Shown here: positions 3,076 to 15,442 of the stretch, one piece after another
Numbering within the stretch: the stretch's first letter is position 1
How the letters are laid out: each line of letters begins with the position of its first letter
Assembly (NCBI RefSeq): GCF_003058085.1
Contig: NZ_QBUD01000001.1
Span: forward strand, 1-64,000
DNA from: Yoonia sediminilitoris
GTDB taxonomy: Bacteria; Pseudomonadota; Alphaproteobacteria; Rhodobacterales; Rhodobacteraceae
DNA: 64,000 nt
Direction of reading: 5' to 3'
The notes under the pieces: generated by a model
Databases searched by the model: none
What the model was told of the DNA's origin: nothing
The model's input: only the letters and a program-made list of their open reading frames with translations
Program-made: the position numbers and the translations under genes

Positions 3076-4127
3076 GTGGCGTACAAACACGGGTCGTTGG
3101 ACCTGATGACGGCGATCAACGGGTGGACCGCTATATGCGTCGGCTGTTCCCGCATCTGACCCAGGGCCGCATTGAAAAGATGTGCCGCAAGGGCGAATTG
3201 CGCGTCGATGGCGGCCGCGTGAAGTCTAATTCACGCCTCGAAGTGGGCCAAAAGGTCCGCATCCCGCCTCTTCCGACCGAGGAAGAGGCAGATGCGCTGC
3301 GGTCACTGGCCAAGCATGGTGTGACCAAGGCAGATGCCAAGCTGATCCAGTCCTGTGTCATCTATAAAGACGACCATATCATTGCGATCAACAAACCTGC
3401 AGGTCTGGCCACGCAAGGCGGATCAAAGACAACCCGTCACGTTGATGGCATGTCAGAGGCACTGACGTTCGGCTATGATGAAAAGCCCCGTCTTGTACAC
3501 CGTCTGGACAAGGATACTTCCGGTGTCCTGTTGCTGGCCCGCACCCGGATGATGGCAAAGCAACTGACTGAAAACCTCAAGCATCGTGAGACCCGCAAGA
3601 TTTATTGGGCCGCCGTTGCCGGTGTTCCGCATCCGCGCGCGGGCACAATCAAATATGGGCTGGTCAAGGCCCCCGGTCATGGTCGCGGCGGCGAGAATGA
3701 AAAGATGCGCTGCGTGCATCCCCGCGATATCGACAGCACCGAAGGGGCCAAGCGTGCGACCAGCGATTATGCGGTCATGGATACGCTCGCCAGCCGCGCG
3801 TCATGGTGTGCGCTGGTCCCGATTACAGGCCGCACCCACCAATTGCGCGCACATATGGCGGAAATCGGTCATCCGATTATTGGTGACGGCAAATATGGCG
3901 GGTCAGGTCAGGAAAACCTTGGCGATGGCTGGGGCGCGGGCATGGGCAGCGAAATCGGGCGCAAGCTACATCTGCATGCGCGCAGCCTGACGATCGAGCA
4001 TCCGGTGACAGGTGCCACCCTGCATCTGACGGCCCCCTTGCCAGAGCATATGCAAAACACGTGGGACTTTGTGGGCTGGGTCGTCGGCCACGCCCCTGTT
4101 GATCCGTTCAATATGCCCGATGAGTGA
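3072..4127 (+). CDS. rluC: RluC/RluD-family 23S rRNA pseudouridine synthase
   Basis: A 351-aa pseudouridine synthase that isomerises uridines in 23S rRNA. An N-terminal S4 RNA-binding domain (about residues 17-70, with GRIEKMCRKGELRVDG) is followed by the catalytic domain. The motif HRLDKDTSG places the catalytic aspartate at about residue 146. INKPAGLATQGG and GRTHQLRAHM are further family blocks. The ATG at 3072 overlaps the crcB stop, which points to translational coupling; an upstream in-frame ATG at 3033 lies inside crcB and is less likely. RluC versus RluD specificity cannot be settled from motifs alone, though the arrangement is RluC-like. Confidence 0.88.
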   Translation: MSGVQTRVVGPDDGDQRVDRYMRRLFPHLTQGRIEKMCRKGELRVDGGRVKSNSRLEVGQKVRIPPLPTEEEADALRSLAKHGVTKADAKLIQSCVIYKDDHIIAINKPAGLATQGGSKTTRHVDGMSEALTFGYDEKPRLVHRLDKDTSGVLLLARTRMMAKQLTENLKHRETRKIYWAAVAGVPHPRAGTIKYGLVKAPGHGRGGENEKMRCVHPRDIDSTEGAKRATSDYAVMDTLASRASWCALVPITGRTHQLRAHMAEIGHPIIGDGKYGGSGQENLGDGWGAGMGSEIGRKLHLHARSLTIEHPVTGATLHLTAPLPEHMQNTWDFVGWVVGHAPVDPFNMPDE

Positions 4128-4785
4128 TTTACGCCTTGTGATATTCGACGTCGACGGAACACTCGTTGACAGTCAGGCTGAAATCGTTGCTGCCATGACC
4201 TCTGCGTTTGCAGGCGAGGGGCTTGATTTGCCCGACCGGCAACGCCTGCTTTCCATCGTGGGCCTTTCACTGGACGAAGCGTTTATCCAGCTTTGCCCCG
4301 ACAGTGATGCAGCGCGGCGTGCCCGATTGGTTGCGGGATACAAGAACAGTTACATGGACCTGCGCGACAGCCAGCGCAAATTCGGGCCGATGTTTCCGGG
4401 TGCGATGGATGTGCTGCAATCGCTGGCCGCACAGGAAGAGACCTTTCTGGCCGTCGCGACGGGCAAATCCCGGCGTGGGCTTGATAAGTTGCTGGAATAT
4501 TACGAATTGACCGGTTTCTTTCACAGTGAACAGGTGTCCGATCACCACCCGTCAAAGCCGAATCCGTCGATGATCCTCACCGCGTTGAATGACACGGGGG
4601 TGGATGCCGCACGGACGGTGATGATTGGGGACACGACATTTGACATGGACATGGGCCGTGCTGCCGGCGTGCGCACGATTGGCGTCAGTTGGGGGTATCA
4701 TCCTGCCGACAGCCTGCGGCCCGACGTCCTGATAGAGGATTTCGCGGCCCTTCCGGAGGCCGTTGACCAACTGACAGGCAACTAG
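4120..4785 (+). CDS. HAD-superfamily phosphatase (phosphoglycolate phosphatase-like)
   Basis: A 221-aa HAD hydrolase. Motif I is FDVDGTLVDS with nucleophile D10 and acid/base D12. A helical cap domain (C1 type) follows. Motif II is VATGKS and motif III/IV is KPNP followed by IGDTTFDMDMGRAAG. This pattern matches small phosphatases of the Gph/PhnX-like group; the natural substrate cannot be read from the sequence. The start is the ATG overlapping the end of the pseudouridine synthase gene by 8 nt, with the typical N-terminal length before motif I. It is followed one base later by the ATP12 gene, so these genes form one operon. Confidence 0.88.
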   Translation: MSDLRLVIFDVDGTLVDSQAEIVAAMTSAFAGEGLDLPDRQRLLSIVGLSLDEAFIQLCPDSDAARRARLVAGYKNSYMDLRDSQRKFGPMFPGAMDVLQSLAAQEETFLAVATGKSRRGLDKLLEYYELTGFFHSEQVSDHHPSKPNPSMILTALNDTGVDAARTVMIGDTTFDMDMGRAAGVRTIGVSWGYHPADSLRPDVLIEDFAALPEAVDQLTGN

Positions 4786-5500: not shown

Positions 5501-5715
5501 AAGCGCGCGGTGCTTGAACTACTTCGATAAAACTGCCCGATTTTTAGGCATTACTTATCAGTTTTAGAATCCTAGCACTTGACCTCAGGCCGAGAAACCG
5601 CACACTCTGGATCACCGAGACAGGGGACTGATCTCATCCACATGAACTGCCAATTCAGGCAGCATAATAACTGACGGCCCCCATGTTGGGGGCTGGAACT
5701 CAGGAAGAGGTAAAA
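5501..5715 (+). promoter_or_regulatory. aapJ leader with two hairpins
   Basis: A 215-base non-coding stretch in front of aapJ. It holds CTGCC/GGCAG (5647-5662) and, 9 bases before the ribosome binding site, GCCCCC/GGGGGC closed by one more A-T pair (5677-5693, three-base loop). The ribosome binding site is AGGAAGAGG (5702-5710). I could not define a convincing -35/-10 pair or match a known riboswitch class. The hairpin next to the binding site may protect the 5' end of the abundant aapJ mRNA or gate its translation. Confidence 0.45.
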
Positions 5716-6735
5716 ATGAATAAAACCGTATTTTTCGGCGCCGTGGCTGTCGCTGGCCTTGCTGCCAGCATGGGCTCAGCTGCAACGCTTGATGATATCA
5801 AGGAGCGCGGCTCGCTGAACTGCGGCGTGACAACTGGTCTGGTTGGTTTTGCGTCACCCGACGCAAACGGCGTTTGGACTGGCTTTGACGTTGGTGTATG
5901 CCGCGCTGTTGCCGCCGCCATCTTTGGCGACCCGACTGCTGTCGAGTTTGTACCAACCACCGGTAAGACCCGCTTCACTTCACTGGCGTCCGGCGAGATC
6001 GACCTGCTGGCACGGAACACAACATGGACATTCAGCCGTGACGTTGACCTGAAGTTCGATTTCGTTGGCGTGAACTACTATGACGGCCAGGGCTTCATGG
6101 TTCCAAAGGAGCTGGGCGTCAGCTCGGCCAAGGATCTGGACGGCGCGACTGTCTGTATCCAGACAGGTACGACAACAGAGCTGAACCTTGCTGATTTCTT
6201 CCGCACCAACAACATCTCTTACGAGCCGGTGCCGATTGAAACCAACGCGGAAGCGCAGCAGCAGTATCTCGCAGGTGCATGCGACGTCTACACAACTGAC
6301 GCATCGGGCCTTGCCGCGACACGCGCATCGTTTGAAAACCCGGCCGATCATGTTCTGTTGCCTGAAATCATCTCCAAAGAGCCGCTTGGCCCACTTGTTC
6401 GCCACGGCGACAACGACTTTGGTGATATCGCACGCTGGACATTGAACGCGCTGATCACAGCCGAAGAGCTGGGTGTGACATCTGCCAACGTCGAAGAGCT
6501 GGGCGCAGCAGCAGGCAACAACCCTGAAATCAACCGTCTGCTGGGCACCGAAGGTGAACTGGGCGCGATGCTGGGGCTGGAAGCCGACTGGGCCAAGAAC
6601 GCTATTGCGGCTGGCGGCAACTACGGTGAGCTGTTCGAAAAGAACATTGGTGAGAACACACCAATCGGCCTTGCGCGTGGTCTGAACGCTCAGTGGACCG
6701 ACGGTGGTCTGATCTACTCTCCACCGTTCCGCTAG
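5716..6735 (+). CDS. aapJ: General L-amino acid ABC transporter, periplasmic binding protein
   Basis: A 339-aa periplasmic solute-binding protein of the AapJ type, the receptor of the broad-range AapJQMP amino-acid importer known from rhizobia. An N-terminal signal peptide ends near GSAA. The mature part starts TLDDIKERGSLNCGV, followed by the type-3 binding-protein blocks GFDVGVCRAVAAAIFGD, TGKTRFTSLASGEIDLLARNT and WTFSRD. The C-terminal LIYSPPFR is typical. The ATG at 5716 is chosen because it follows AGGAAGAGG and starts the signal peptide directly. A strong hairpin follows the gene before the permeases. Confidence 0.95.
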   Translation: MNKTVFFGAVAVAGLAASMGSAATLDDIKERGSLNCGVTTGLVGFASPDANGVWTGFDVGVCRAVAAAIFGDPTAVEFVPTTGKTRFTSLASGEIDLLARNTTWTFSRDVDLKFDFVGVNYYDGQGFMVPKELGVSSAKDLDGATVCIQTGTTTELNLADFFRTNNISYEPVPIETNAEAQQQYLAGACDVYTTDASGLAATRASFENPADHVLLPEIISKEPLGPLVRHGDNDFGDIARWTLNALITAEELGVTSANVEELGAAAGNNPEINRLLGTEGELGAMLGLEADWAKNAIAAGGNYGELFEKNIGENTPIGLARGLNAQWTDGGLIYSPPFR

Positions 6736-6752
6736 GGTCGGCTGACAAGAAC

Positions 6753-6780
6753 AAAAGGCGCAGAGAAATCTGCGCCTTTT
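6753..6780 (+). terminator. Intra-operon terminator/attenuator hairpin after aapJ
   Basis: A perfect 12-bp stem, AAAAGGCGCAGA (6753-6764) against its complement (6769-6780), closed by a GAAA tetraloop and ending in TTTT. It has the form of a Rho-independent terminator. Because aapQMP follow without another obvious strong promoter, it probably works as a partial terminator or 3' stabiliser that keeps binding-protein mRNA above permease mRNA. Confidence 0.85.
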
Positions 6781-6857
6781 CACTTAAACGACAAACGGCA
6801 CGCGCAGGTCGAAACAATTGACCGCACAAAATGATGCCGGAACCACGGGGAAACATA

Positions 6858-8099
6858 ATGACATCGATTACCGACCCGCCACAGGGGTCATTCCGCCCGT
6901 CTATGCTTATCAATGACACGCGGTATCGATCTTACACATTTCAGGCGATTGCATTTATCGTTCTAGCTGCCTCGATTGGATATCTTCTTGATAATCTGTT
7001 CGAAAATCTGGCGGCGCAGGGGCTTGAGATCAGCTTTGGTTTTCTGGCCGCTCCGGCAGGCTATGATATCAACCAGACACTGATCGAATATACCAGCCAA
7101 TCAAGTAACTTGCGCGCTGCTGTTGTTGGTATTCTCAACACCCTTCTGGTGGCCGTTCTGGCTTGTGTAACCGCGACGGTTTTCGGTGTGCTGGCCGGTG
7201 TGCTGCGCCTGTCAAACAACTGGCTGGTCGCCAAACTGATGGCGATCTATGTCGAGATTTTTCGAAATATCCCCGTACTGATCTGGATCCTGATCATCTA
7301 CGGAATCATGACGATCGTTCTAGCCGCACCCCGGGATTTCCGCGGCGATGACCCTGCGGCGTCCATGTTTCTAGGCCTTGCGGCCTTTACAAACCGGGGT
7401 GTCTATATTCCGCTCCCGCAATTCACACGTGGCTTTGGCGCTGCTGAACTTGGCGCCATTTGGGATTGGCTTCTCGTCATTGCGCTGCTGATCGGATCAC
7501 TGATTGCGACCCGTTTTGTCACAGCGCGCGCAACCCGGATTCAGGAAGCGACGGGTATACGCCCCAAGACACTGATGACAAATCTGGCGATCTGGTTTGC
7601 GCCGCTCATCCTGACCTTTCTGATCCTCGGTCTTACTTTCGAGATTCCTGCCTTGCGCGGGTTCAACTTTGCAGGGGGCATCAAGATCGGTGCGCCGCTG
7701 ATCGCAATCTGGTTTGCGCTCTCGATCTATACCGGGGCCTTCATCGCTGAAAATGTCCGCGCCGGTATTCAGGCCGTATCCAAAGGCCAGACAGAGGCGG
7801 CCGCCGCGTTGGGCATCCGCCCCGGCCGGATCATGAGCCTTGTGATCCTGCCACAGGCCTTGCGGGTCATTATTCCACCGCTGATTTCCAACTACCTTAA
7901 CATCACCAAGAACTCGTCGCTGGCGATTTTGGTGGGTTATGCCGATGTCACGGCTACGCTTGGCGGGATCACACTGAACCAGACCGGTCGCGCAATCGAA
8001 TGTGTGTTGCTGTTGATGCTGTTCTATCTGCTGATCTCGTTGCTCATTTCTGCGGTGATCAATGTCTACAACAACGCAATCAAGCTGAAGGAGCGCTAA
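6858..8099 (+). CDS. aapQ: General L-amino acid ABC transporter, permease AapQ
   Basis: A 413-aa inner-membrane permease of the HisM/AapQ type. After a first membrane helix (near residues 28-45) it has a periplasmic region and the transport domain. The ATPase-coupling EAA loop reads EAAAALGIRPGRIMSLVILPQALR. The RNIPVLIW block is a family signature. The ATG at 6858 is chosen over an ATG at 6831 because GGGGAAA lies at suitable distance. It pairs with AapM, which starts 3 bases after its stop. Confidence 0.93.
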   Translation: MTSITDPPQGSFRPSMLINDTRYRSYTFQAIAFIVLAASIGYLLDNLFENLAAQGLEISFGFLAAPAGYDINQTLIEYTSQSSNLRAAVVGILNTLLVAVLACVTATVFGVLAGVLRLSNNWLVAKLMAIYVEIFRNIPVLIWILIIYGIMTIVLAAPRDFRGDDPAASMFLGLAAFTNRGVYIPLPQFTRGFGAAELGAIWDWLLVIALLIGSLIATRFVTARATRIQEATGIRPKTLMTNLAIWFAPLILTFLILGLTFEIPALRGFNFAGGIKIGAPLIAIWFALSIYTGAFIAENVRAGIQAVSKGQTEAAAALGIRPGRIMSLVILPQALRVIIPPLISNYLNITKNSSLAILVGYADVTATLGGITLNQTGRAIECVLLLMLFYLLISLLISAVINVYNNAIKLKER

Positions 8100-8102
8100 G
8101 CG

Positions 8103-9401
8103 ATGACCAATAATCATGACCGCTCCATCGCCTTTGTCCGCACCGAAGACGTGCCGGCAGCCCCGCCGCCGCCCAATGCGGCCGGGCCCACAAAATGGCT
8201 CAAGGACAATCTGTTTGCCACGATCCCTAACAGCATCCTGACAATCGTTGCTCTTCTGGTCATCTATCTGATCCTGCAGGGCACGCTGCCATGGCTGCTG
8301 AACGGGGTTTGGGTGTCGCCCAGCCTGTCGGTTTGCCGCGATATTCTAGACGGGGCGACGGGAGCCTGTTTTGCGGTGCTGACGGAACGCTGGAACCAGC
8401 TTTTGTTCGGTTTCCAGTATCCTGCCGATCTGTACTGGCGGCCGGGACTGGCGTTCATCCTGTTGTTCTTTGCAGCGGCGCCTGTCCTGTTCTTTGATCT
8501 GCCGCGCAAGCTGTTGATCTTCACGGCACTCTATCCTTTCATCGCCTTCTATCTGATCTGGGGTGGCTCGATCCTGACACCGATTGTGGCACTTGTGGGC
8601 GTCGTCGCTGGCGCGGCAGTGTACCAGAGATACGTCAAGGGCAGCTTTGCATTGGGCTTTTTCGCAGGCATCGTTGCGGCGCTGATTGTGTGGAACCTGG
8701 GCGGCCTGATCATCCCCGATGAGGAAATCACCGAAGGGGCGATGCGCTCGGTTGCAAGTCGTGATTTGGGTGGTTTCATGCTAAACATGATGCTGGGTGT
8801 GACCTGTGTGTCGCTGTCGGTACCGCTTGGGATCGCGCTTGCACTCGGGCGTCAGTCCAGCATGCCGCTGATCAAATACATCTGCGTGATCTTCATTGAG
8901 TTCATTCGCGGCGTGCCTTTGATCACCCTGCTGTTCGTGGCCAGCGTCATGCTGTCATACTTCTTTCCGCCCGAAGCGACGGTCGATCTGTTCCTGCGTG
9001 TTGTGATCATGATCACGATGTTCTCAGCGGCCTACATCGCCGAGGTCATCAGGGGCGGTCTGGCGGCGTTGCCAAAGGGCCAGTATGAGGCAGGCGACAG
9101 TCTGGGGCTGGATTACGCGCAGTCCATGCGGCTGATCATCCTGCCGCAGGCGCTGAAGATTTCCATCCCCGGCATCGTGAATGTGGCCGTTGGCCTGTTC
9201 AAGGATACAACGCTGGTTTCCGTCATTTCGATGTTCGATCTGGTCGGCATGATCCGCGGGCCAATTCTGGCATCAACTGACTGGCAGGGGATTTACTGGG
9301 AACTCTTCGGGTTTGCAGCACTGCTATTCTTCGTCGTCTGCTACGGCATCTCACAATACTCACAATGGTTGGAGCGCAGGCTCGCAACCGACCATCGCTA
9401 G
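8103..9401 (+). CDS. aapM: General L-amino acid ABC transporter, permease AapM
   Basis: A 432-aa inner-membrane permease, partner of AapQ. The N-terminus is cytoplasmic and proline-rich (APPPPNAAGP). Several extra membrane helices precede the core, as is usual for AapM. The core shows EFIRGVPLITLLF and the EAA loop GQYEAGDSLGLDYAQSMRL. The C-terminus ends YGISQYSQWLERRL, a family hallmark. Spacing to aapQ (3 bases) and aapP (15 bases) supports a single transcript. Confidence 0.93.
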   Translation: MTNNHDRSIAFVRTEDVPAAPPPPNAAGPTKWLKDNLFATIPNSILTIVALLVIYLILQGTLPWLLNGVWVSPSLSVCRDILDGATGACFAVLTERWNQLLFGFQYPADLYWRPGLAFILLFFAAAPVLFFDLPRKLLIFTALYPFIAFYLIWGGSILTPIVALVGVVAGAAVYQRYVKGSFALGFFAGIVAALIVWNLGGLIIPDEEITEGAMRSVASRDLGGFMLNMMLGVTCVSLSVPLGIALALGRQSSMPLIKYICVIFIEFIRGVPLITLLFVASVMLSYFFPPEATVDLFLRVVIMITMFSAAYIAEVIRGGLAALPKGQYEAGDSLGLDYAQSMRLIILPQALKISIPGIVNVAVGLFKDTTLVSVISMFDLVGMIRGPILASTDWQGIYWELFGFAALLFFVVCYGISQYSQWLERRLATDHR

Positions 9402-9416
9402 GAGGAGGCTTTTATC

Positions 9417-10184
9417 ATGGCCGAAGCAACACAAATGAAAGTCTCGGACGAGCTTGCGATCACGATCGAGAATATGAACAAGTGGTACGGCACGTTCCAC
9501 GTTCTGCGCGACATCGATCTGACCGTCTATCGGGGTGAACGCATTGTCATCTGCGGCCCGTCCGGGTCTGGCAAATCGACGCTGATCCGCTGCATCAACG
9601 CGCTGGAAGAACACCAGCAGGGCAAGATCGTAGTGGATGGGACGGTGCTGTCGTCTGATCTGAAAAACATCGACAAGATCCGGTCAGAGGTTGGCATGTG
9701 TTTCCAGCACTTCAACCTTTTCCCGCATCTGACGATTCTGGAAAACTGCACGCTGGCTCCGATCTGGGTGCGCAAGACACCCAAGAAGGAAGCCGAAGAA
9801 ACGGCGATGCATTTCCTTGAAAAGGTGAAAATTCCTGATCAGGCAAACAAGTATCCGGGCCAATTGTCAGGTGGGCAGCAGCAGCGTGTGGCCATCGCCC
9901 GCTCGCTTTGCATGAAGCCGCGTATCATGCTGTTTGACGAACCCACATCGGCGCTTGACCCTGAGATGATCAAGGAAGTGCTAGATACGATGATCGAACT
10001 GGCCGAGGAAGGCATGACCATGCTGTGTGTGACCCACGAGATGGGCTTTGCACGGCAGGTGGCCAACCGCGTGATCTTTATGGATCAAGGCCAGATTGTT
10101 GAACAGAACGAGCCAGAGGAATTCTTCCTCAACCCGCAGTCAGAGCGGACGCAACTGTTCCTGAGCCAGATTCTGGGTCACTAG
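9417..10184 (+). CDS. aapP: General L-amino acid ABC transporter, ATPase AapP
   Basis: A 255-aa ABC ATPase that powers AapQM. Walker A is GPSGSGKST, the Q-loop lies in [13 protein letters not shown], the signature is LSGGQQQR, Walker B is [15 protein letters not shown], and the H-loop is in [10 protein letters not shown]. Length and order match polar amino-acid ATPases. A strong AGGAGG ribosome binding site stands before the ATG. It ends the operon and a GC-rich hairpin follows. Confidence 0.95.
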
Positions 10185-10456: not shown

Positions 10457-10609
10457 TCAAAAGCGGTCTCGCCAAGCAACCAAGCCAGCCAGAGTAATCG
10501 CAACAAGGCCTGCCGCCAATGGAAGCGCCGACGCGACGATGACAACCTCTTGATGCGCGGCCGCAGGTGTGGCTGCGACGAGAACCATAAAAAATATTCC
10601 GGTCTTCAT
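10457..10609 (-). CDS. 50-aa hydrophobic protein, last gene of the guanidine operon
   Basis: A small open reading frame of 50 codons. It starts MKTGIFFMVLVAATPAAAH, which looks like a signal peptide with an AxA cleavage site before HQEVV. It continues with a hydrophobic helix (ALPLAAGLVAITLAGLVAW) and ends in a charged tail, RDRF. Its ATG overlaps the stop of the upstream histidine-rich gene (ATGA), the same junction type used elsewhere in this operon, which strongly suggests it is translated by coupling. I do not recognise a family. A small membrane partner in metal or guanidine handling is possible from context only. A truncated larger protein is the alternative. Confidence 0.6.
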   Translation of the reverse strand: MKTGIFFMVLVAATPAAAHQEVVIVASALPLAAGLVAITLAGLVAWRDRF

Positions 10610-11049
10610 TTGCCTATTGCCCCTGCGGCCTGGTGGCTTTTCATGAAGCTGCGCAAATCCTCGACGTGTTTTGTCCGCAAAGACACATAGATCAGTCCCA
10701 TATTAGTCCGCTCTGTCACCATCGGTCCCGGATAGGGCAGATAGCTGAGTTCGCGTGATCCGAAGGATGGCGACGCTGTACCTACTTGCCATTCGGTAGT
10801 CAGCGTGACGTCCACCAGCTTCATTGTCGGTCCGCCTTCGGGGTCGGCCATTTCCAAAGGCACGCCGGCGATGCGCAGATAGGACATTTTGTCTTTGGCA
10901 TCGATGAACCCTTCGATGAATTGTGTTGTCAAAACCTTCAGTTCTTCGGCGCGGTCCGCATCTGGCATGTGGCTGTGCAAGTGCTCGCCGTCATGCGCGT
11001 GGTTGTGCCCGATGTGACCGATATGGCCGTTCACGATATCATGTGGCAT
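10606..11049 (-). CDS. Histidine-rich protein of the guanidine operon (possible metallochaperone)
   Basis: A 147-aa soluble protein. The first 27 residues hold nine histidines (HIGHIGHNHAH and EHLHSH), a pattern seen in nickel or zinc storage and chaperone proteins. The remaining 120 residues (from about AEELKVLTTQFIEGFIDAKDKMSYLRIAGVP) match no family I know, including HypA and HypB. The ATG at 11049 follows GGAAAGAGG and overlaps the end of the hydrolase gene by 11 nt; the longer in-frame extension lies inside that gene. In cyanobacteria the guanidine hydrolase needs nickel and is encoded with HypA/HypB-like proteins, so a nickel-delivery role is a reasonable inference, not shown here. Confidence 0.78.
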   Translation of the reverse strand: MPHDIVNGHIGHIGHNHAHDGEHLHSHMPDADRAEELKVLTTQFIEGFIDAKDKMSYLRIAGVPLEMADPEGGPTMKLVDVTLTTEWQVGTASPSFGSRELSYLPYPGPMVTERTNMGLIYVSLRTKHVEDLRSFMKSHQAAGAIGK

Positions 11050-12283
11050 TGGACCACCTCTTTCCTTCGAATTCGCCGTGCGGAATGGTGACCGGTTTGT
11101 CCATATGCCGCTTATGTGCGCCCAATTTACCGGATGATACAAGCGAACCAAGGACATCAACGATAACCCGTGTGCCCATCAAGGCCGTGATTTCAGACTG
11201 ATCATAGGGCGGAGCGACTTCCACCAACTCCATGCTGCAAATCCCCTCGGCGGCAACTTTGCTGACGAGAGCCAATGCTTCGCGCGGCAGGAAACCGCCC
11301 GGCTCTGGCCAACCGGTGCCGGGGACAAAGCCACAATCGATGCTGTCGATATCAAATGACAGGTAAACCATATCGACCCCGTCCCACGCCATCTCGAGTG
11401 CCATCTCGACGGTCTTGTCGATCCCCATCTTTTCCATATCGCCCATGGTGATGATGTTGGTTTCGCGTTCGCGCGCGACCTTCACGGCCTCGCGCGGGAC
11501 CTGCCAGCCACCGATGCCGATTTGCACAAGGTTCTTTGCCGGTACGTTGGGCATATTGGTAGCATGGAACCAGGGTGTCGTATGCATGCGTTCATCAAGG
11601 TCTTTTTCCTGAATATCCGCATGGCGATCAAAGTGGATGATCCCGATCTTCTTGGAAGTGCATTCCGCGATCCCCCGCACACAGGGAAAACCGATGGAAT
11701 GGTCTCCACCAATCATGATCGGCAATGATCCCGATGACGACACATGGCTGACACCGCGTGTTATCTGGTCAAAGGTCTTTTCGATATTCGCGGGAATTGT
11801 AAAAACATCGCCCGCGTCACACAGCGTCATCTGTTCGCGTAGATCTACGCCCGTTTCATAGTTGTAGGGCGTGTAAAGCGCCGAGATCTTGCGCAATCCC
11901 TGCGGACCGAACCGTGTGCCCGCACGATACGTCGTGCCACCGTCAAACGGGATACCCAGAACAGTGGCGTCATAATCGCCGACCTCGGTCGCGTCTTCCG
12001 CATAGGGTGCCTTGAGGAAGGTATTGATGCCCGCGTAGTGTGGCAGCTCGCCGCGCGCAAAAGTCGGAATAGACTTATCCTCGATGCTGTCAGCACCGGT
12101 CAGCCCCATGCGCAGCGCCCATTTCTTTTCTTCATCCCAGCCGGTTTCAGGCAGCCCTTCTTCGGCCTGCATGGCTTTCCAGCCTCGCAGCTTCGTCAGG
12201 TCGGGGTGGTGATAGCGGCGGCTATCACCGATCTGATCGCGCGGATGATGTGAGCGCGTCCGATCAATGGGCCTGCAAAACAT
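11039..12283 (-). CDS. gdmH: Ureohydrolase, probable guanidine hydrolase (GdmH type)
   Basis: A 414-aa member of the arginase/agmatinase fold, about 100 residues longer than SpeB agmatinases. Metal-binding motifs are GGDHS (H195), FDRHAD (D219, H221, D223) and SFDID (D311, D313). Features that fit guanidine hydrolase (Synechocystis Sll1077 type) rather than agmatinase are the long N-terminal part with FARGELPHYAGINTF (76-90), DRHAD in place of the usual DAH-D, and PGTGWPEPGG (321-330). The product would be urea plus ammonium. A guanidine-I riboswitch at the head of the operon is the strongest support. The start at 12283 follows GAGGAGAAG and overlaps the ATPase gene by 20 nt. Annotation pipelines would call it agmatinase (speB). 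Confidence 0.85.
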   Translation of the reverse strand: MFCRPIDRTRSHHPRDQIGDSRRYHHPDLTKLRGWKAMQAEEGLPETGWDEEKKWALRMGLTGADSIEDKSIPTFARGELPHYAGINTFLKAPYAEDATEVGDYDATVLGIPFDGGTTYRAGTRFGPQGLRKISALYTPYNYETGVDLREQMTLCDAGDVFTIPANIEKTFDQITRGVSHVSSSGSLPIMIGGDHSIGFPCVRGIAECTSKKIGIIHFDRHADIQEKDLDERMHTTPWFHATNMPNVPAKNLVQIGIGGWQVPREAVKVARERETNIITMGDMEKMGIDKTVEMALEMAWDGVDMVYLSFDIDSIDCGFVPGTGWPEPGGFLPREALALVSKVAAEGICSMELVEVAPPYDQSEITALMGTRVIVDVLGSLVSSGKLGAHKRHMDKPVTIPHGEFEGKRWSNAT

Positions 12284-13031
12284 GTGTCTTCTCCTCAAGT
12301 GCTTGGAATGGGATGCCGCCATCGCGGGCATCAAAGTCGAAAGTAATCGTCGCGCCATAGGCGTTCGGGTCGTGAGGGTCCCAGCGCGGTTTGTCGAAAA
12401 CCAAGACGCGGTCGCCAAGTTTGAAGGCCTCATGCAGATCATGGGTGACCATAAAGACCGTCATCAGGGTCTCGGCCCGCAACTCGGTCAGGAACTCATG
12501 CATGGAAAGCCGCGTGCCCGGGTCAAGCGCGCCAAAGGGTTCATCAAGCAACAAAACCCGTGGGCGCGCCGCCAAGGCCTGCCCGATGGCCAACCTTTGC
12601 TGCATGCCGCCTGATAACGTCGCTGGATATTGATCGGCCACATGGTCCAAACCGCAGCGTGCCAGCGTTTCATCAGCGCGCGCCATGGCCGCCTTTCGTT
12701 CAGCCCCAAAGAACCGCCCCCACGGGCGGCGGAAGCTTCCGCCAGCCACGATATTGTCGCGCACTGTCAGATGAGGGAATACCGAATAGCGTTGAAACAC
12801 GACGCCACGATCAAGCCCGGGTTCGGTGGCGGGGGCTGCGCCTGCAATGCTGACGCTGCCAAACGTGGGGGTCTCTTGTGCCAGCAGCAACCGCAGAAAA
12901 GTGGACTTGCCACAGCCCGACGCACCAACAATCGAGATAAATTCGCCTTCTTCTATCTCGACATTGACGCGCTCTATGATTGGGCGCCTGCCGTAGGTTT
13001 GGAATACGTTCTTGACGGTGACAAAGCTCAT
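12264..13031 (-). CDS. NitT/TauT-family ABC transporter ATPase (guanidine operon)
   Basis: A 255-aa ABC ATPase of the SsuB/TauB/NrtD group. Walker A is GASGCGKST, the Q-loop region is VVFQRYSVFPHLT, the signature is LSGGMQQR and Walker B is VLLLDEPFGALDP. The ATG at 13031 overlaps the permease stop (ATGA). In Synechocystis the guanidine hydrolase gene is likewise near an ABC importer of this class, so the likely substrate is guanidine. Here the importer has lost its binding protein gene, so whether it still works is uncertain. Confidence 0.88.
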   Translation of the reverse strand: MSFVTVKNVFQTYGRRPIIERVNVEIEEGEFISIVGASGCGKSTFLRLLLAQETPTFGSVSIAGAAPATEPGLDRGVVFQRYSVFPHLTVRDNIVAGGSFRRPWGRFFGAERKAAMARADETLARCGLDHVADQYPATLSGGMQQRLAIGQALAARPRVLLLDEPFGALDPGTRLSMHEFLTELRAETLMTVFMVTHDLHEAFKLGDRVLVFDKPRWDPHDPNAYGATITFDFDARDGGIPFQALEEKTHVLQAH

Positions 13032-13840
13032 AGTCCCTCCTGCACCCAATGGAAGAAACGCCGCGATATCCAGCGCAGCCCCCAGTCAATCAAGAATGCC
13101 AAGATCGTGATCCAGATGACGTAGGTAAAAATGACATCCATTGCGAGGTAACGGCGCACCAGGAAAATACGATAGCCAAGGCCCCCGTCAGATGCGATCG
13201 CCTCGGCTGCGATCAAAAAGAGCCATGCAGGTCCAAGGGACAGGCGCACCGACTGGATCAATCGCGGCATGACTTGCGGTAATGCCACCCGGATGGCGAT
13301 GACCCAGCTCGAAGCGCCCAGAGTCTGGGCTTTGACCAGCAGTTCTTCCGGTATCTCGATCACGCGTTGGCTCAGATCACGGATCAGGAATGGCAATGTG
13401 CCAACGACGATCAAGACGACTTTGGATAACTCGCCCAGTCCAAAGACAATAAAAAGTATCGGCAACAATGCCAGTGGCGGGATCATGGACAAGACCGCCA
13501 CGAATTGCGCCAGAAAGCTTCGCACGAGTGGAAATAGCCCGATCAGCAGACCAAATAACAACCCGACGGACGCCGAGATTCCGATGCCAAGGCCAAGCCG
13601 TTGCAGGCTGGCCCAGGTGTCGTGCCAAAACAGGATACGCCCGGTGCGCCTGTCACCTTCGCTGACCAGACGTACCATCGTGTCCCATATCTTGTCAGGT
13701 GCGGGTAGCAGCTTGTCCTGCGGGTTCGCTGACAGCCGGATGTCAGAGCCGATTGCATAGGTCAAAAAGACGAATAAGAAGGGCAGCAACATCAAGAACA
13801 CCGCGAAAGGACGTCCAGGCTTTATGTTGATCAGGCGCAT
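13028..13840 (-). CDS. NitT/TauT-family ABC transporter permease (guanidine operon)
   Basis: A 270-aa inner-membrane permease of the SsuC/TauC/NrtB group with about six membrane helices. The coupling loop reads ELLVKAQTLGASSWVIAIRVALPQVMPRL. The first helix (FAVFLMLLPFLFVFLTYAIG) is followed by a periplasmic loop with LLPAPDKIWDTM. An ATG at 13840 is taken as the start; a TTG at 13858 in the same frame is possible. Neither has a clear ribosome binding site, and the ATG lies just after a strong hairpin, so translation may once have been coupled to the binding-protein gene whose stub ends at 13883. Confidence 0.87.
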   Translation of the reverse strand: MRLINIKPGRPFAVFLMLLPFLFVFLTYAIGSDIRLSANPQDKLLPAPDKIWDTMVRLVSEGDRRTGRILFWHDTWASLQRLGLGIGISASVGLLFGLLIGLFPLVRSFLAQFVAVLSMIPPLALLPILFIVFGLGELSKVVLIVVGTLPFLIRDLSQRVIEIPEELLVKAQTLGASSWVIAIRVALPQVMPRLIQSVRLSLGPAWLFLIAAEAIASDGGLGYRIFLVRRYLAMDVIFTYVIWITILAFLIDWGLRWISRRFFHWVQEGL

Positions 13841-13847
13841 ATGAAGC

Positions 13848-13875
13848 GCCCGCCGCAAGTTGCATCGCAGCGGGC
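13848..13875 (-). repeat. Hairpin between binding-protein stub and permease
   Basis: On the minus strand GCCCGCTGC (13875-13867) can pair with GCGGCGGGC (13856-13848) with one G-U pair and a ten-base loop. It starts a few bases after the stop of the binding-protein stub. Strong hairpins in the same place occur in the aap and mannoside operons of this window, which suggests a shared way of shielding binding-protein mRNA. Confidence 0.6.
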
Positions 13876-13882
13876 ATATTCC

Positions 13883-13996
13883 TTAGAGATCACCATCGGC
13901 CGCCATTTGCATGTAGGTCGTGTCAAACCGGAAGGTCACGTTCAATTGCTCAAAGTGGAATGACCGCGTGGGTGGCAACATGAAGCGCTGGTCAAA
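13883..13996 (-). pseudogene. 3' stub of the guanidine ABC transporter substrate-binding protein gene
   Basis: Reading the minus strand, 37 in-frame codons ending in TAA give FDQRFMLPPTRS, then FHFEQLNVTF and FDTTYMQMAADGDL. This looks like the C-terminal end of a NitT/TauT-type periplasmic binding protein, and it sits where such a gene is expected, directly before the permease. The rest of the gene (signal peptide and roughly 350 codons) is missing. The stub begins within about 15 bases of the end of the riboswitch aptamer, so one deletion probably removed the expression platform and most of the gene. The exact junction cannot be fixed without a relative for comparison. An ATG at 13981 would give at most a 32-aa peptide. 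Confidence 0.7.
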
Positions 13997-14004
13997 CCTG
14001 CACA

Positions 14005-14112
14005 GTAGCCTCCCGGGATTTTGCCCCGCCGTGTACCGAACCACCTGAGGGCAGACGGCGATAACTCTTGGACCTGACCCCAGCACGTGGGCGGAACCCT
14101 AGTTATCCTGCA
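14005..14112 (-). promoter_or_regulatory. Guanidine-I riboswitch (ykkC class)
   Basis: The minus strand carries the conserved blocks of the ykkC/guanidine-I aptamer in the right order: CTAGGGTTCCG (14102-14092), GGTCCAAGAG (14074-14065), ACACGG (14034-14029) and GGCAAAATCCCGGGAG (about 14025-14010). The helices also form. P1 is GATAACT (14108-14102) with AGTTATC (14066-14060), P2 is CCCA (14091-14088) with TGGG (14082-14079), and P3 is CGCCGT (14060-14055) with ACGGCG (14032-14027). This class binds guanidinium and usually turns genes on. It heads the operon with the hydrolase and ABC transporter. What remains of an expression platform after the deletion is unclear; GGGAGG at 14014-14009 is part of the aptamer end. 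Confidence 0.94.
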
Positions 14113-14118
14113 CTCTAA

Positions 14119-14147
14119 CCTAACGATGAGACCCAGTCGTCGCTCAA
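14119..14147 (-). promoter_or_regulatory. Possible promoter of the guanidine operon
   Basis: On the minus strand TTGAGC (14147-14142) and GTTAGG (14124-14119) are 17 bases apart and end a few bases before the first aptamer helix, where transcription would have to start. The -10 box is poor, so this is a position-based guess. Confidence 0.35.
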
Positions 14148-14282
14148 CTGTGACGTTCACCAATTCCCTTACTCACCTTGAACCTGCCTATTTTTCGGGC
14201 GAAATATTCAGACGTGCCTCTCCAGAAGGTCCAATAAGAACTGGTCAAGGCGATATTCATATGCACGAGGGCGTTCATTACA

Positions 14283-14545
14283 CTTAAGGCAACGGCAGCT
14301 TTTTCCCGCAGTGTGTGAATTCGACCCGGTTCTGATTTCGCGCCGTTTGCGCGTGATTGTCAGCAGGCCGGCGCGCTTCAGGATGGCGAGATGGCCAGAC
14401 GACGTTTATGGCTTTGCCACCAATCGCTCTGCTATCGTCAGCGCTGGAACGCCGTTGGCGCGGATTTCACCAATAGCCGAAATGCGGCCAATCGTGTCGG
14501 ATGGGCCACGGCGGCAAGGGTCTTGATGGCGGTTTCCTCTTTCAT
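14283..14545 (-). pseudogene. Broken ArsR-family transcriptional regulator
   Basis: The minus strand encodes pieces of an ArsR/SmtB winged-helix repressor in two frames. From an ATG at 14545 it reads MKEETAIKTLAAVAHPTR, then LAAFRLLVKSAPTAFQR and a stop. In another frame it continues NGVPALTIAERLVAKP, an in-frame TAA, then TSSGHLAILKRAGLLTITRK and REIRT. Together these cover the N-terminal helix, recognition helix and wing of an ArsR protein. A frameshift near 14450, the TAA near 14409 and an unrecognisable C-terminus show that it is dead. Confidence 0.75.
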
Positions 14546-14720
14546 GCTTCGTCAATGCCCGGCCCTGATGATTTTGGCTGGCGTTCATGGTGACGAATAT
14601 GAAGGCCAGATCTCGGTGGCAAACCCTGCGCGTACACTTGGTGCGCCCGATATCCGCGGGCGAGTGATCCTGCCTTTGGCAGATTATGCGGTCAATCTGC
14701 TCAATGCGTGGGTGTTTAAC
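14523..14720 (+). pseudogene. Remnant of a succinylglutamate desuccinylase/aspartoacylase-family deacylase
   Basis: The segment MILAGVHGDEYEGQISVANP, continued by ARTLGAPDIRGRVILPLAD, matches the zinc-binding N-terminal region of the AstE/AspA/DoeB deacylase family (the HGDEYEG block holds the His and Glu ligands). It is divergent from, and partly on top of, the start of the ArsR remnant, so sequence upstream has been lost. After about 14720 the reading frame drifts into sequence unlike the family. No intact gene is possible. Confidence 0.65.
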
Positions 14721-14959
14721 GGCGTCGGGGTGACCCGGCCCCGCACTCCCGTCGCACCAGCAGATCGGGCTATCCGGCGCATGCCCCCAGGAACCGCGTG
14801 AAGTCGCATCGCCCGCAAAACCCGCGCCGCTCACATCAGCACGCAACACTCGCCAAAAGCGCAATACCGCGAGAACGTTTTTGTCCGAGGGTCCAAAGCT
14901 GACACGGCAATAGATACTCTTTAAGCTGACAGGTAAACGATCTTTACAGGAGATTCTTC

Positions 14960-15442
14960 ATGGGACCAATCGAAGAAAAACTGAGTGAGCTTGGGTTCAA
15001 CTTACCCGCACCAACAAGGGTTCCCAATGGTCTGCATTTGCCGTTCTCCTTTGTGAACCTGCGCGGCAACCGCCTTATTTTTTCAGGTCACCCCAAGAAT
15101 TCAATGGATGGTGGCATTGCCGGCCCTTTTGGCGTTGTGGGAAGCGACTTCACAACCGATGAGGCCTATAACGAAGCGCAGCAGGTTGCACTTTCTGTCC
15201 TCGCAAATATCAAGGCCGAGATTGGCGACCTATCCAGAATTACTGGCTGGTCACGGGTATTCGGAATGGTGACATCCGCTCCGGGCTATACAGAGCAGCA
15301 CCTTGTGCTCAATGGGTTTAGTGATCTGATAATAGGTATATTCGGAAGGGACGTTGGTCGCCACGCGCGGTCGGCGATTGGCGTGAGCGCGCTGCCGCTT
15401 GGGTTTGCGATGGAAATCGAAGGTGAAGTGGAAATCGAATAG
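14960..15442 (+). CDS. RidA/YjgF-family protein
   Basis: A 160-aa protein of the longer RidA-like subgroup (about 150 aa, as opposed to 128 aa for RidA itself). Blocks include NLRGNRLIFSGH, DFTTDEAYNEAQQVALSVLA, LSRITGWSRVFGMV and a C-terminal HARSAIGVSALPLGFAMEIE. Members deaminate reactive enamines/imines or act in catabolic pathways. The catalytic arginine typical of true RidA lies in the HARSAIGV block. The ribosome binding site is CAGGAG before the ATG. It stands alone next to the decayed region. Its substrate is unknown. The 293 bases after it (15443-15735) show no gene I can support. Confidence 0.85.
   Translation: MGPIEEKLSELGFNLPAPTRVPNGLHLPFSFVNLRGNRLIFSGHPKNSMDGGIAGPFGVVGSDFTTDEAYNEAQQVALSVLANIKAEIGDLSRITGWSRVFGMVTSAPGYTEQHLVLNGFSDLIIGIFGRDVGRHARSAIGVSALPLGFAMEIEGEVEIE

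Follow-up and report, generated by a model that had tools for sequence, protein, structure and literature searches.

Detailed knowledge of how bacteria use guanidine comes from one cyanobacterium, comammox Nitrospira and a few enterobacteria. The present analysis concerns a probable operon for guanidine utilisation, with a guanidinase (GdmH), on the minus strand of a 64,000-nucleotide stretch of Yoonia sediminilitoris DNA (assembly GCF_003058085.1, contig NZ_QBUD01000001.1, positions 1 to 64,000), here called the window. One well described system of this kind is that of Synechocystis PCC 6803, where a guanidine-I riboswitch and gdmH (sll1077) are found together with hypA, hypB and the NitT/TauT-type ATP-binding cassette (ABC) transporter genes sll1080-1082 (PMC8390497, PMC12186494). 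Both GdmH and the metformin hydrolase are nickel-dependent and are activated by HypA and HypB encoded nearby (PMC11399263, PMC8390497, PMC12186494), and a similar nickel arrangement has been described in marine picocyanobacteria (PMC10119275). Another example is the comammox bacterium Nitrospira inopinata, which has a guanidine-I riboswitch, a guanidinase and an APC permease, and in which no nickel chaperone gene stands near the guanidinase (PMC11410670). In the metformin/dimethylguanidine hydrolase operons of Aminobacter and Pseudomonas, the nickel-dependent ureohydrolase has two subunits, and HypA, HypB and HupE adjoin it (PMC11399263). Riboswitch-linked genes that are agmatinase-like or assigned to agmatine utilisation are widespread (PMC8390497, PMC3766115).

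The Yoonia locus shares with Synechocystis the guanidine-I riboswitch, the NitT/TauT-type ABC genes and GdmH, but it carries HRP147, a histidine-rich protein named in this analysis, and a 50-amino-acid peptide in place of HypA and HypB, and its gene for the substrate-binding protein has been deleted. With N. inopinata it has the riboswitch and the guanidinase in common, whereas ABC genes and HRP147 stand where that organism has the APC permease and no nearby chaperone gene. The likeness to the metformin operons lies in the predicted nickel-dependent ureohydrolase; HRP147 differs from the proteins encoded there in that it matches neither HypA nor any other Pfam model and lies downstream of the enzyme. 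We read the locus as a GdmH-type guanidine-utilisation operon under riboswitch control, from which the binding protein has been deleted and in which HRP147 is a nickel partner, and we put the probability of this whole reading at about 0.8. Free guanidine would switch on the operon through the riboswitch, and where the operon is intact, as it is in relatives, guanidine would be imported by the permease and the ATPase together with a periplasmic binding protein. The nickel ureohydrolase would then split guanidine to urea and ammonium, with urease finishing the pathway, while the histidine-rich head of HRP147 would capture nickel and deliver it to the guanidinase in place of HypA/HypB, and the membrane peptide would help to bring in or hold nickel. 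The combination of riboswitch and guanidinase is of an already known kind; what is new is the HRP147 arrangement of the alphaproteobacterial operon. Among the papers listed in literature searches, none describes such an operon for Rhodobacteraceae, Roseobacter, Rhodobacterales or Alphaproteobacteria, or a histidine-rich or chaperone partner of guanidinase, and the supplements of PMC8390497 and PMC3766115 may list roseobacter operons.

The hydrolase (11039..12283, minus strand) is a protein of 414 amino acids of the arginase family. Its best solved relatives are 7esr/7oi1 (E 1.1e-163) and 9fek (E 6.9e-162), deposited as 'probable agmatinase 2' and 'putative agmatinase 2', respectively, which have been identified as the guanidinases of Synechocystis and N. 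inopinata (PMC11410670). These two lead the next solved relative, a guanidinobutyrase (E 1.9e-48), by about 114-115 orders of magnitude. Guanidine specificity has been assigned to T97 and W305 in Synechocystis, equivalent to T105 and W313 in N. inopinata, with H222 and E344 named too (PMC11410670). These residues align with T117, H233, W324 and E354 of the window hydrolase, using a 2-residue offset between chain and published numbering that we infer since it fits both chains. All four are identical in 80/80 loci, which are the best 80 of 573 confirmed relatives in a scan of a genome collection and come mostly from Rhodobacteraceae or roseobacter genera. The threonine and tryptophan places hold other residues in the guanidinobutyrase, in PAH and in two paralogues from the same genome (L082 and L083), and a further protein (L085) is without the motifs. 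In a tree of 29 rows, which has several very long outgroup branches, no SpeB row and an unsettled base branching among the guanidinases, a branch with support 100/99 sets the window protein apart from the outgroups, together with the two guanidinases and every other gdmH row. By its grouping with the characterised guanidinases and by the specificity threonine and tryptophan, the protein belongs with GdmH, and the proposal of a preliminary description of this DNA that it is a guanidinase rather than an agmatinase is borne out; activity on guanidine is predicted from these likenesses. A urease alpha subunit is encoded elsewhere in the genome (C1:177579), so the urea could be used further.

At the head of the operon lies a guanidine-I (ykkC) riboswitch aptamer (14008..14113, minus strand), which the preliminary description had recognised from its motifs and helices. 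The search with Rfam family RF00442 gave a significant, full-length match at 14113-14008(-), covering model positions 1-107 and scoring 70.0 bits at E 2.1e-10, above the gathering score of 63. This was the sole Rfam family over threshold within the 64-kb window, and when a second guanidine-I riboswitch was sought in the 4.67-Mb genome, only the window copy was found. The aptamer motifs CTAGGGTTCCG, GGTCCAAGAG, ACACGG and CCCGGGAG are all present. The proposed helices were compared in an alignment of 28 aptamers, made up of the window copy and 27 relatives picked by motif or Rfam rather than by helices, and two of the three hold, with compensating base changes. The helix GATAACT/AGTTATC is paired in 97% of cells, with 2-4 pair types at 5/7 positions, and is whole in 23/28 aptamers, and CCCA/TGGG is likewise paired in 97% of cells, with 3-5 pair types, and whole in 22/28. 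The third, CGCCGT/ACGGCG, is not a conserved pairing: it is paired in 82% of cells, is whole in just 8/28 aptamers and varies on one side only, and the GCCG arm pairs instead with CGGT (96% of cells, whole in 24/28 aptamers), where both sides change. The element is identified as a guanidine-I riboswitch, which would bind guanidine and switch expression.

The NitT/TauT-type transporter genes that had been placed behind the aptamer together with the ureohydrolase were located there and matched in Pfam. The permease (13028..13840, minus strand; 270 amino acids) matches PF00528 (1.5e-21), with TauC as its best NCBIfam model (3.6e-31, under its cut-off), and the ATPase (12264..13031, minus strand), of the NrtD/TauB type, matches PF00005 (9.9e-32), with ntrCD as its best NCBIfam model (1.9e-53, also under cut-off). 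The start of the ATPase gene overlaps the permease stop (ATGA). In the window the aptamer and the permease are 167 bases apart, and this interval holds a remnant of the substrate-binding-protein gene (13883..13942, minus strand), consisting of the last 19 codons and the stop, which in tblastn against the window is 66% and 69% identical to the binding proteins of two relatives (L001, E 7e-7; L003, E 9e-7). Between aptamer and remnant lies a leader in the region of the expression platform (13943..14007, minus strand), which is kept in close relatives when compared by eye with seven of them and with L001. Sequence like that of L001 continues from the aptamer through this leader to AATTG (13947-13943) and then skips to the codon for L001 residue 334 (13942). 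At the junction 13942/13943, 1,012 bases of L001 are gone, including the start codon, the bases preceding it and 333 of the 352 codons.

All the remaining genes of the window operon are open, and a full-length binding protein is kept in 5/5 other gdmH-bearing genomes of the genus. A further loss is seen in Pelagimonas (L059, 4050-5116), where the riboswitch (4050-4167) is followed by a permease from 4304 with no binding-protein match between them and the rest kept. A guanidine ABC importer of this type comprises a binding protein, a permease and an ATPase; here the latter two are open and the first is deleted. Importers of the NitT/TauT class depend on their binding protein, and the window importer is therefore presumed no longer to import guanidine, so that import by this strain is doubtful. 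The guanidine-to-urea pathway of the preliminary description stands as regards the riboswitch, the guanidinase and the urease alpha subunit, but a complete import pathway is unsupported because the binding protein is deleted; that description was silent on the missing gene and on two small genes (11049-10606 and 10609-10457) within the region it covered. Neither of the two outcomes it had named as refuting was seen, the covariance match being significant and the protein grouping with the two characterised guanidinases. We infer that in this strain the operon would act on guanidine leaking into the cell or produced within it, or else that its decay has begun.

The first of these small genes encodes HRP147 (10606..11049, minus strand; 147 amino acids), with 9 histidines in its first 32 residues. 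The window member has no Pfam or NCBIfam match, and none of 30 members of the core has a Pfam match better than 0.05. A comparison with HypA (PF01155) and HypB (TIGR00073) gave no match, and sequence searches for solved relatives produced nothing better than E 0.2 and 4.6. The core is modelled as two helices, five strands and a helix, with a predicted local distance difference (pLDDT) of 88.5 and a predicted template modelling score (pTM) of 0.74; a fold search with it returned no confident match among solved structures (best E 0.38 and 0.56). A likeness to COMM domains, with template modelling (TM) scores of 0.40 and 0.39 by target, was rejected as too weak for kinship. In 77 proteins of the family, found by an MPHD-like start, the heads hold 5-28 histidines (median 16), and there are four cysteines in total. 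The second small gene encodes a 50-amino-acid peptide (10457..10609, minus strand) whose start overlaps HRP147 at an ATGA, and which has a signal-like head ending in AAAH (A-x-A-H) and then one hydrophobic stretch. It has no Pfam match and only a chance-level NCBIfam one (0.027). ATGA-coupled peptides of such make follow HRP147 at 37/77 loci by a strict rule, and they look present at more.

A histidine-rich head on a conserved core in the operon of a nickel enzyme suggests a replacement for HypA/HypB, and HRP147 may deliver nickel to the guanidinase. In the genome under study, a search for HypA gave no match, and the HypB model (TIGR00073) gave two matches, both under cut-off; the stronger of the two, situated 3 kb from urease alpha, is probably UreG. 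A nickel role for the 50-amino-acid peptide is plausible by analogy, because the nickel transporter HupE adjoins the hydrolase in the metformin-degraders. As a bolder and tentative proposal, to which we give rather less than even odds, HRP147 could be a new nickel-metallochaperone family distinct from HypA/HypB, dedicated to the alphaproteobacterial guanidinase and working with the peptide, whose exposed histidine start would gather nickel; some strains, this one included, would be shedding the import arm and keeping the riboswitch, the enzyme and the nickel arm, which would make an internal guanidine clean-up out of a scavenging operon.

The association of HRP147 with the hydrolase is seen across many genomes. 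The family stands behind the hydrolase in 79/80 loci; at L041, the one exception, the available stretch does not extend past the hydrolase. A covariance model (R1) built from 28 aptamers, of which Rfam confirms 11, finds the riboswitch in 78/80 loci, including 51/53 loci outside model building. A motif expression with at least 20 bases between two motifs missed most loci, many relatives having fewer, and a wider expression found 30/80. A binding protein of about 350 amino acids (match of at least 320 residues) is present in 77/80 loci, always between riboswitch and permease; the other three are L037, which begins inside the permease, L055, which is without a riboswitch, and L059. The full order of riboswitch, binding protein, permease, ATPase, hydrolase and HRP147 is found in 76/80 loci, and one locus (L070) is cut by a contig edge. 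At L055, gdmH and HRP147 adjoin in the absence of guanidine-type transporter genes, beside a divergent set resembling another ABC transporter, which links HRP147 with the enzyme and not with import.

Within the genus, 6/56 genomes, the window genome included, have the hydrolase at E 1e-150. In a family sample of 246 genomes, one per genus, gdmH (E 1e-120) was found in 37 and HRP147 (E 1e-3) in exactly those 37, the two genes lying within 600 bases of each other in the same orientation. Among these hydrolases, that of G215 is truncated at a contig edge and that of G228 is interrupted by a stop codon. A class sample gave gdmH in 13/387 genomes, all 13 with HRP147, and HRP147 without gdmH in two, as a stop-bearing fragment (G406, L126) and in G605 (L127). 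Of the ten class-level gdmH loci L128-L137, the R1 riboswitch is clear in six and weak in L131 (29 bits), and R1 finds none in L129, L130 and L133, the last of which begins inside the binding protein. The megaplasmid of Sinorhizobium fredii NGR234 also carries the complete set of riboswitch, all three importer genes, hydrolase and HRP147 (7.6e-16). In annotated plasmid records the hydrolase is named 'agmatinase family protein', as the preliminary description had expected. Its forecast of a nitrate/taurine name for the transporter failed: one plasmid record lists the transporter genes as 'putative urea ABC transporter substrate-binding protein', 'ABC transporter permease subunit' and 'ATP-binding cassette domain-containing protein', and the first of these names is given to the binding protein of a Limimaricola plasmid. 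HRP147 is called hypothetical in the two plasmid records that match it.

Other explanations of the locus can be weighed against this evidence. The arginase-family Pfam match of the hydrolase, a score near the cut-off of the agmatinase model TIGR01230 (166.4 versus 174.3 bits) and the annotation of its orthologues would fit an agmatinase or another guanidino-acid hydrolase for which the riboswitch context is incidental. Both agmatinase models nevertheless stay under cut-off (NF002564 at 206.1 versus 302 bits), the structures that depositors named agmatinases score 3.5e-37 (4dz4), 7.1e-36 (1wog) and 2.2e-33 (7lol), and the riboswitch accompanies the hydrolase at 78/80 loci; with the closest solved structures, T117 and W324, and the tree, in which no SpeB row stands, the agmatinase reading is rejected, and its probability is very slight. 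It is somewhat more conceivable, yet still highly improbable, that an assembly error accounts for the absence of the binding-protein gene, since this is one genome in a draft assembly of 49 contigs; against this, the junction lies inside a 1.03-Mb contig, completeness is 99.99%, the assembly has no copy elsewhere at E 1e-3, and the gene has been lost in L059 as well. That the importer still works, through an unlinked or very divergent binding protein or through the permease alone, is unlikely in view of the dependence of its class on a binding protein, although the permease and ATPase remain open and conserved and the Pelagimonas locus has likewise lost only the binding protein. When the L001 protein was used as query at E 1e-3, only the remnant was matched in this nearly complete genome, and a distant homologue above that value would escape the search. 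A different part of the reading is at issue if HRP147, rather than being a nickel chaperone, helps the guanidinase to fold, forms one of its subunits or regulates it, or is a general store of zinc or cobalt, and this too is possible at somewhat less than even odds. The class-wide conservation falls on the core domain and not on the histidine head, the core model has no confident solved match and its fold gives no clue, and the metformin hydrolase needs its second subunit for activity (PMC11399263), whereas the abundance of histidines in the heads occurs in nickel-enzyme operons, at the place where cyanobacteria and metformin-degraders have HypA/HypB.

Several observations weigh against parts of the reading of the locus as an operon with a lost import arm and a nickel partner, and the limit on the binding-protein search just given is one of them. 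In comparisons of the window with L001, L002, L003 and L008, the ratio of non-synonymous to synonymous substitution rates (dN/dS) of permease and ATPase is 0.04-0.08, compared with 0.04-0.05 for the sister pair L001-L003, with dS saturated, so that either the loss happened recently or the importer is still of use and under constraint. The same comparisons, again with saturated dS, give 0.01-0.07 for hydrolase and HRP147, and L001 against L003 gives 0.02-0.05 across genes. Of four permeases compared, that of the window evolves fastest in 3/3 outgroup comparisons, though by a small margin of up to 15%, and its ATPase does so in 1/3. As regards nickel, the HRP147 members of L133, L134 and L135 have few histidines, so the rich head is not universal and nickel binding by it cannot be the whole function of HRP147. 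The guanidinase of N. inopinata, as noted above, stands without a nearby chaperone gene, and two Rubrobacter plasmid loci have the hydrolase with no HRP147 within about 11 kb. HypA is matched at E 1e-3 in 11/37 gdmH-bearing family genomes and over cut-off in 10/37, where it could serve the guanidinase; in two of these ten it shares a contig with gdmH, at distances of 45 and 254 kb, and in eight it lies on other contigs.

If the reading of the locus as a guanidinase operon with a nickel partner holds, the presence of the enzyme in 37 of 246 sampled genera means that guanidinase has been hidden under an agmatinase name in a largely marine family, and HRP147 is an unannotated candidate answer to how guanidinases without HypA/HypB are loaded with nickel. 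The deletion also cautions that the presence of the operon does not mean that the organism imports guanidine.

Further features were observed in and around these loci. A strong GC-rich hairpin (13844..13881, minus strand; -22.7 kcal/mol in a fold of 45 bases from 13882) lies between the binding-protein remnant and the permease start, and GC-rich inverted repeats were seen by eye at the same place in 7 relatives; it perhaps sets the ratio of binding protein to permease. A scan of 13700-14400 for promoters and terminators found no promoter and a single terminator-like site, which falls inside the permease; shuffled sequences gave 0.7 such sites. Behind HRP147, a cluster of frames is found in 55/80 loci, with a median start 365 bases behind gdmH; the member tested (L074) is a metallo-beta-lactamase-fold hydrolase (PF00753, 1e-21), and no such frame was seen behind the window operon. 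At L127 (5519-6532, G605), the riboswitch and the first part of a binding-protein gene run into HRP147, with no match to permease, ATPase or hydrolase in the 8-kb stretch, a layout that would reflect decay or an assembly join. A different, actinobacterial layout is seen on a plasmid of Rubrobacter indicoceani (L139, 4795-11164), where an R1 match of 67 bits, a guanidinase and a sodium:solute symporter are accompanied by a formamidase on the opposite strand and then urease genes, with neither ABC importer genes nor HRP147 nearby.

In the window, no clear intact gene was seen at 14130-14960. A 136-amino-acid frame within it (14391-14798, plus strand) has a 40-residue AstE/AspA match (PF24827, 2e-5, just under cut-off) and 27 bits to DoeB, and is perhaps a fragment of a deacylase of the ectoine-degradation type. 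On the other side, an apparent amino-acid ABC transporter set (5683-10184, plus strand) heads towards the guanidine operon; its permease at 8103 and ATPase at 9417 match polar-amino-acid families, and two frames before that permease look, from the frame list, like a binding protein and a second permease.

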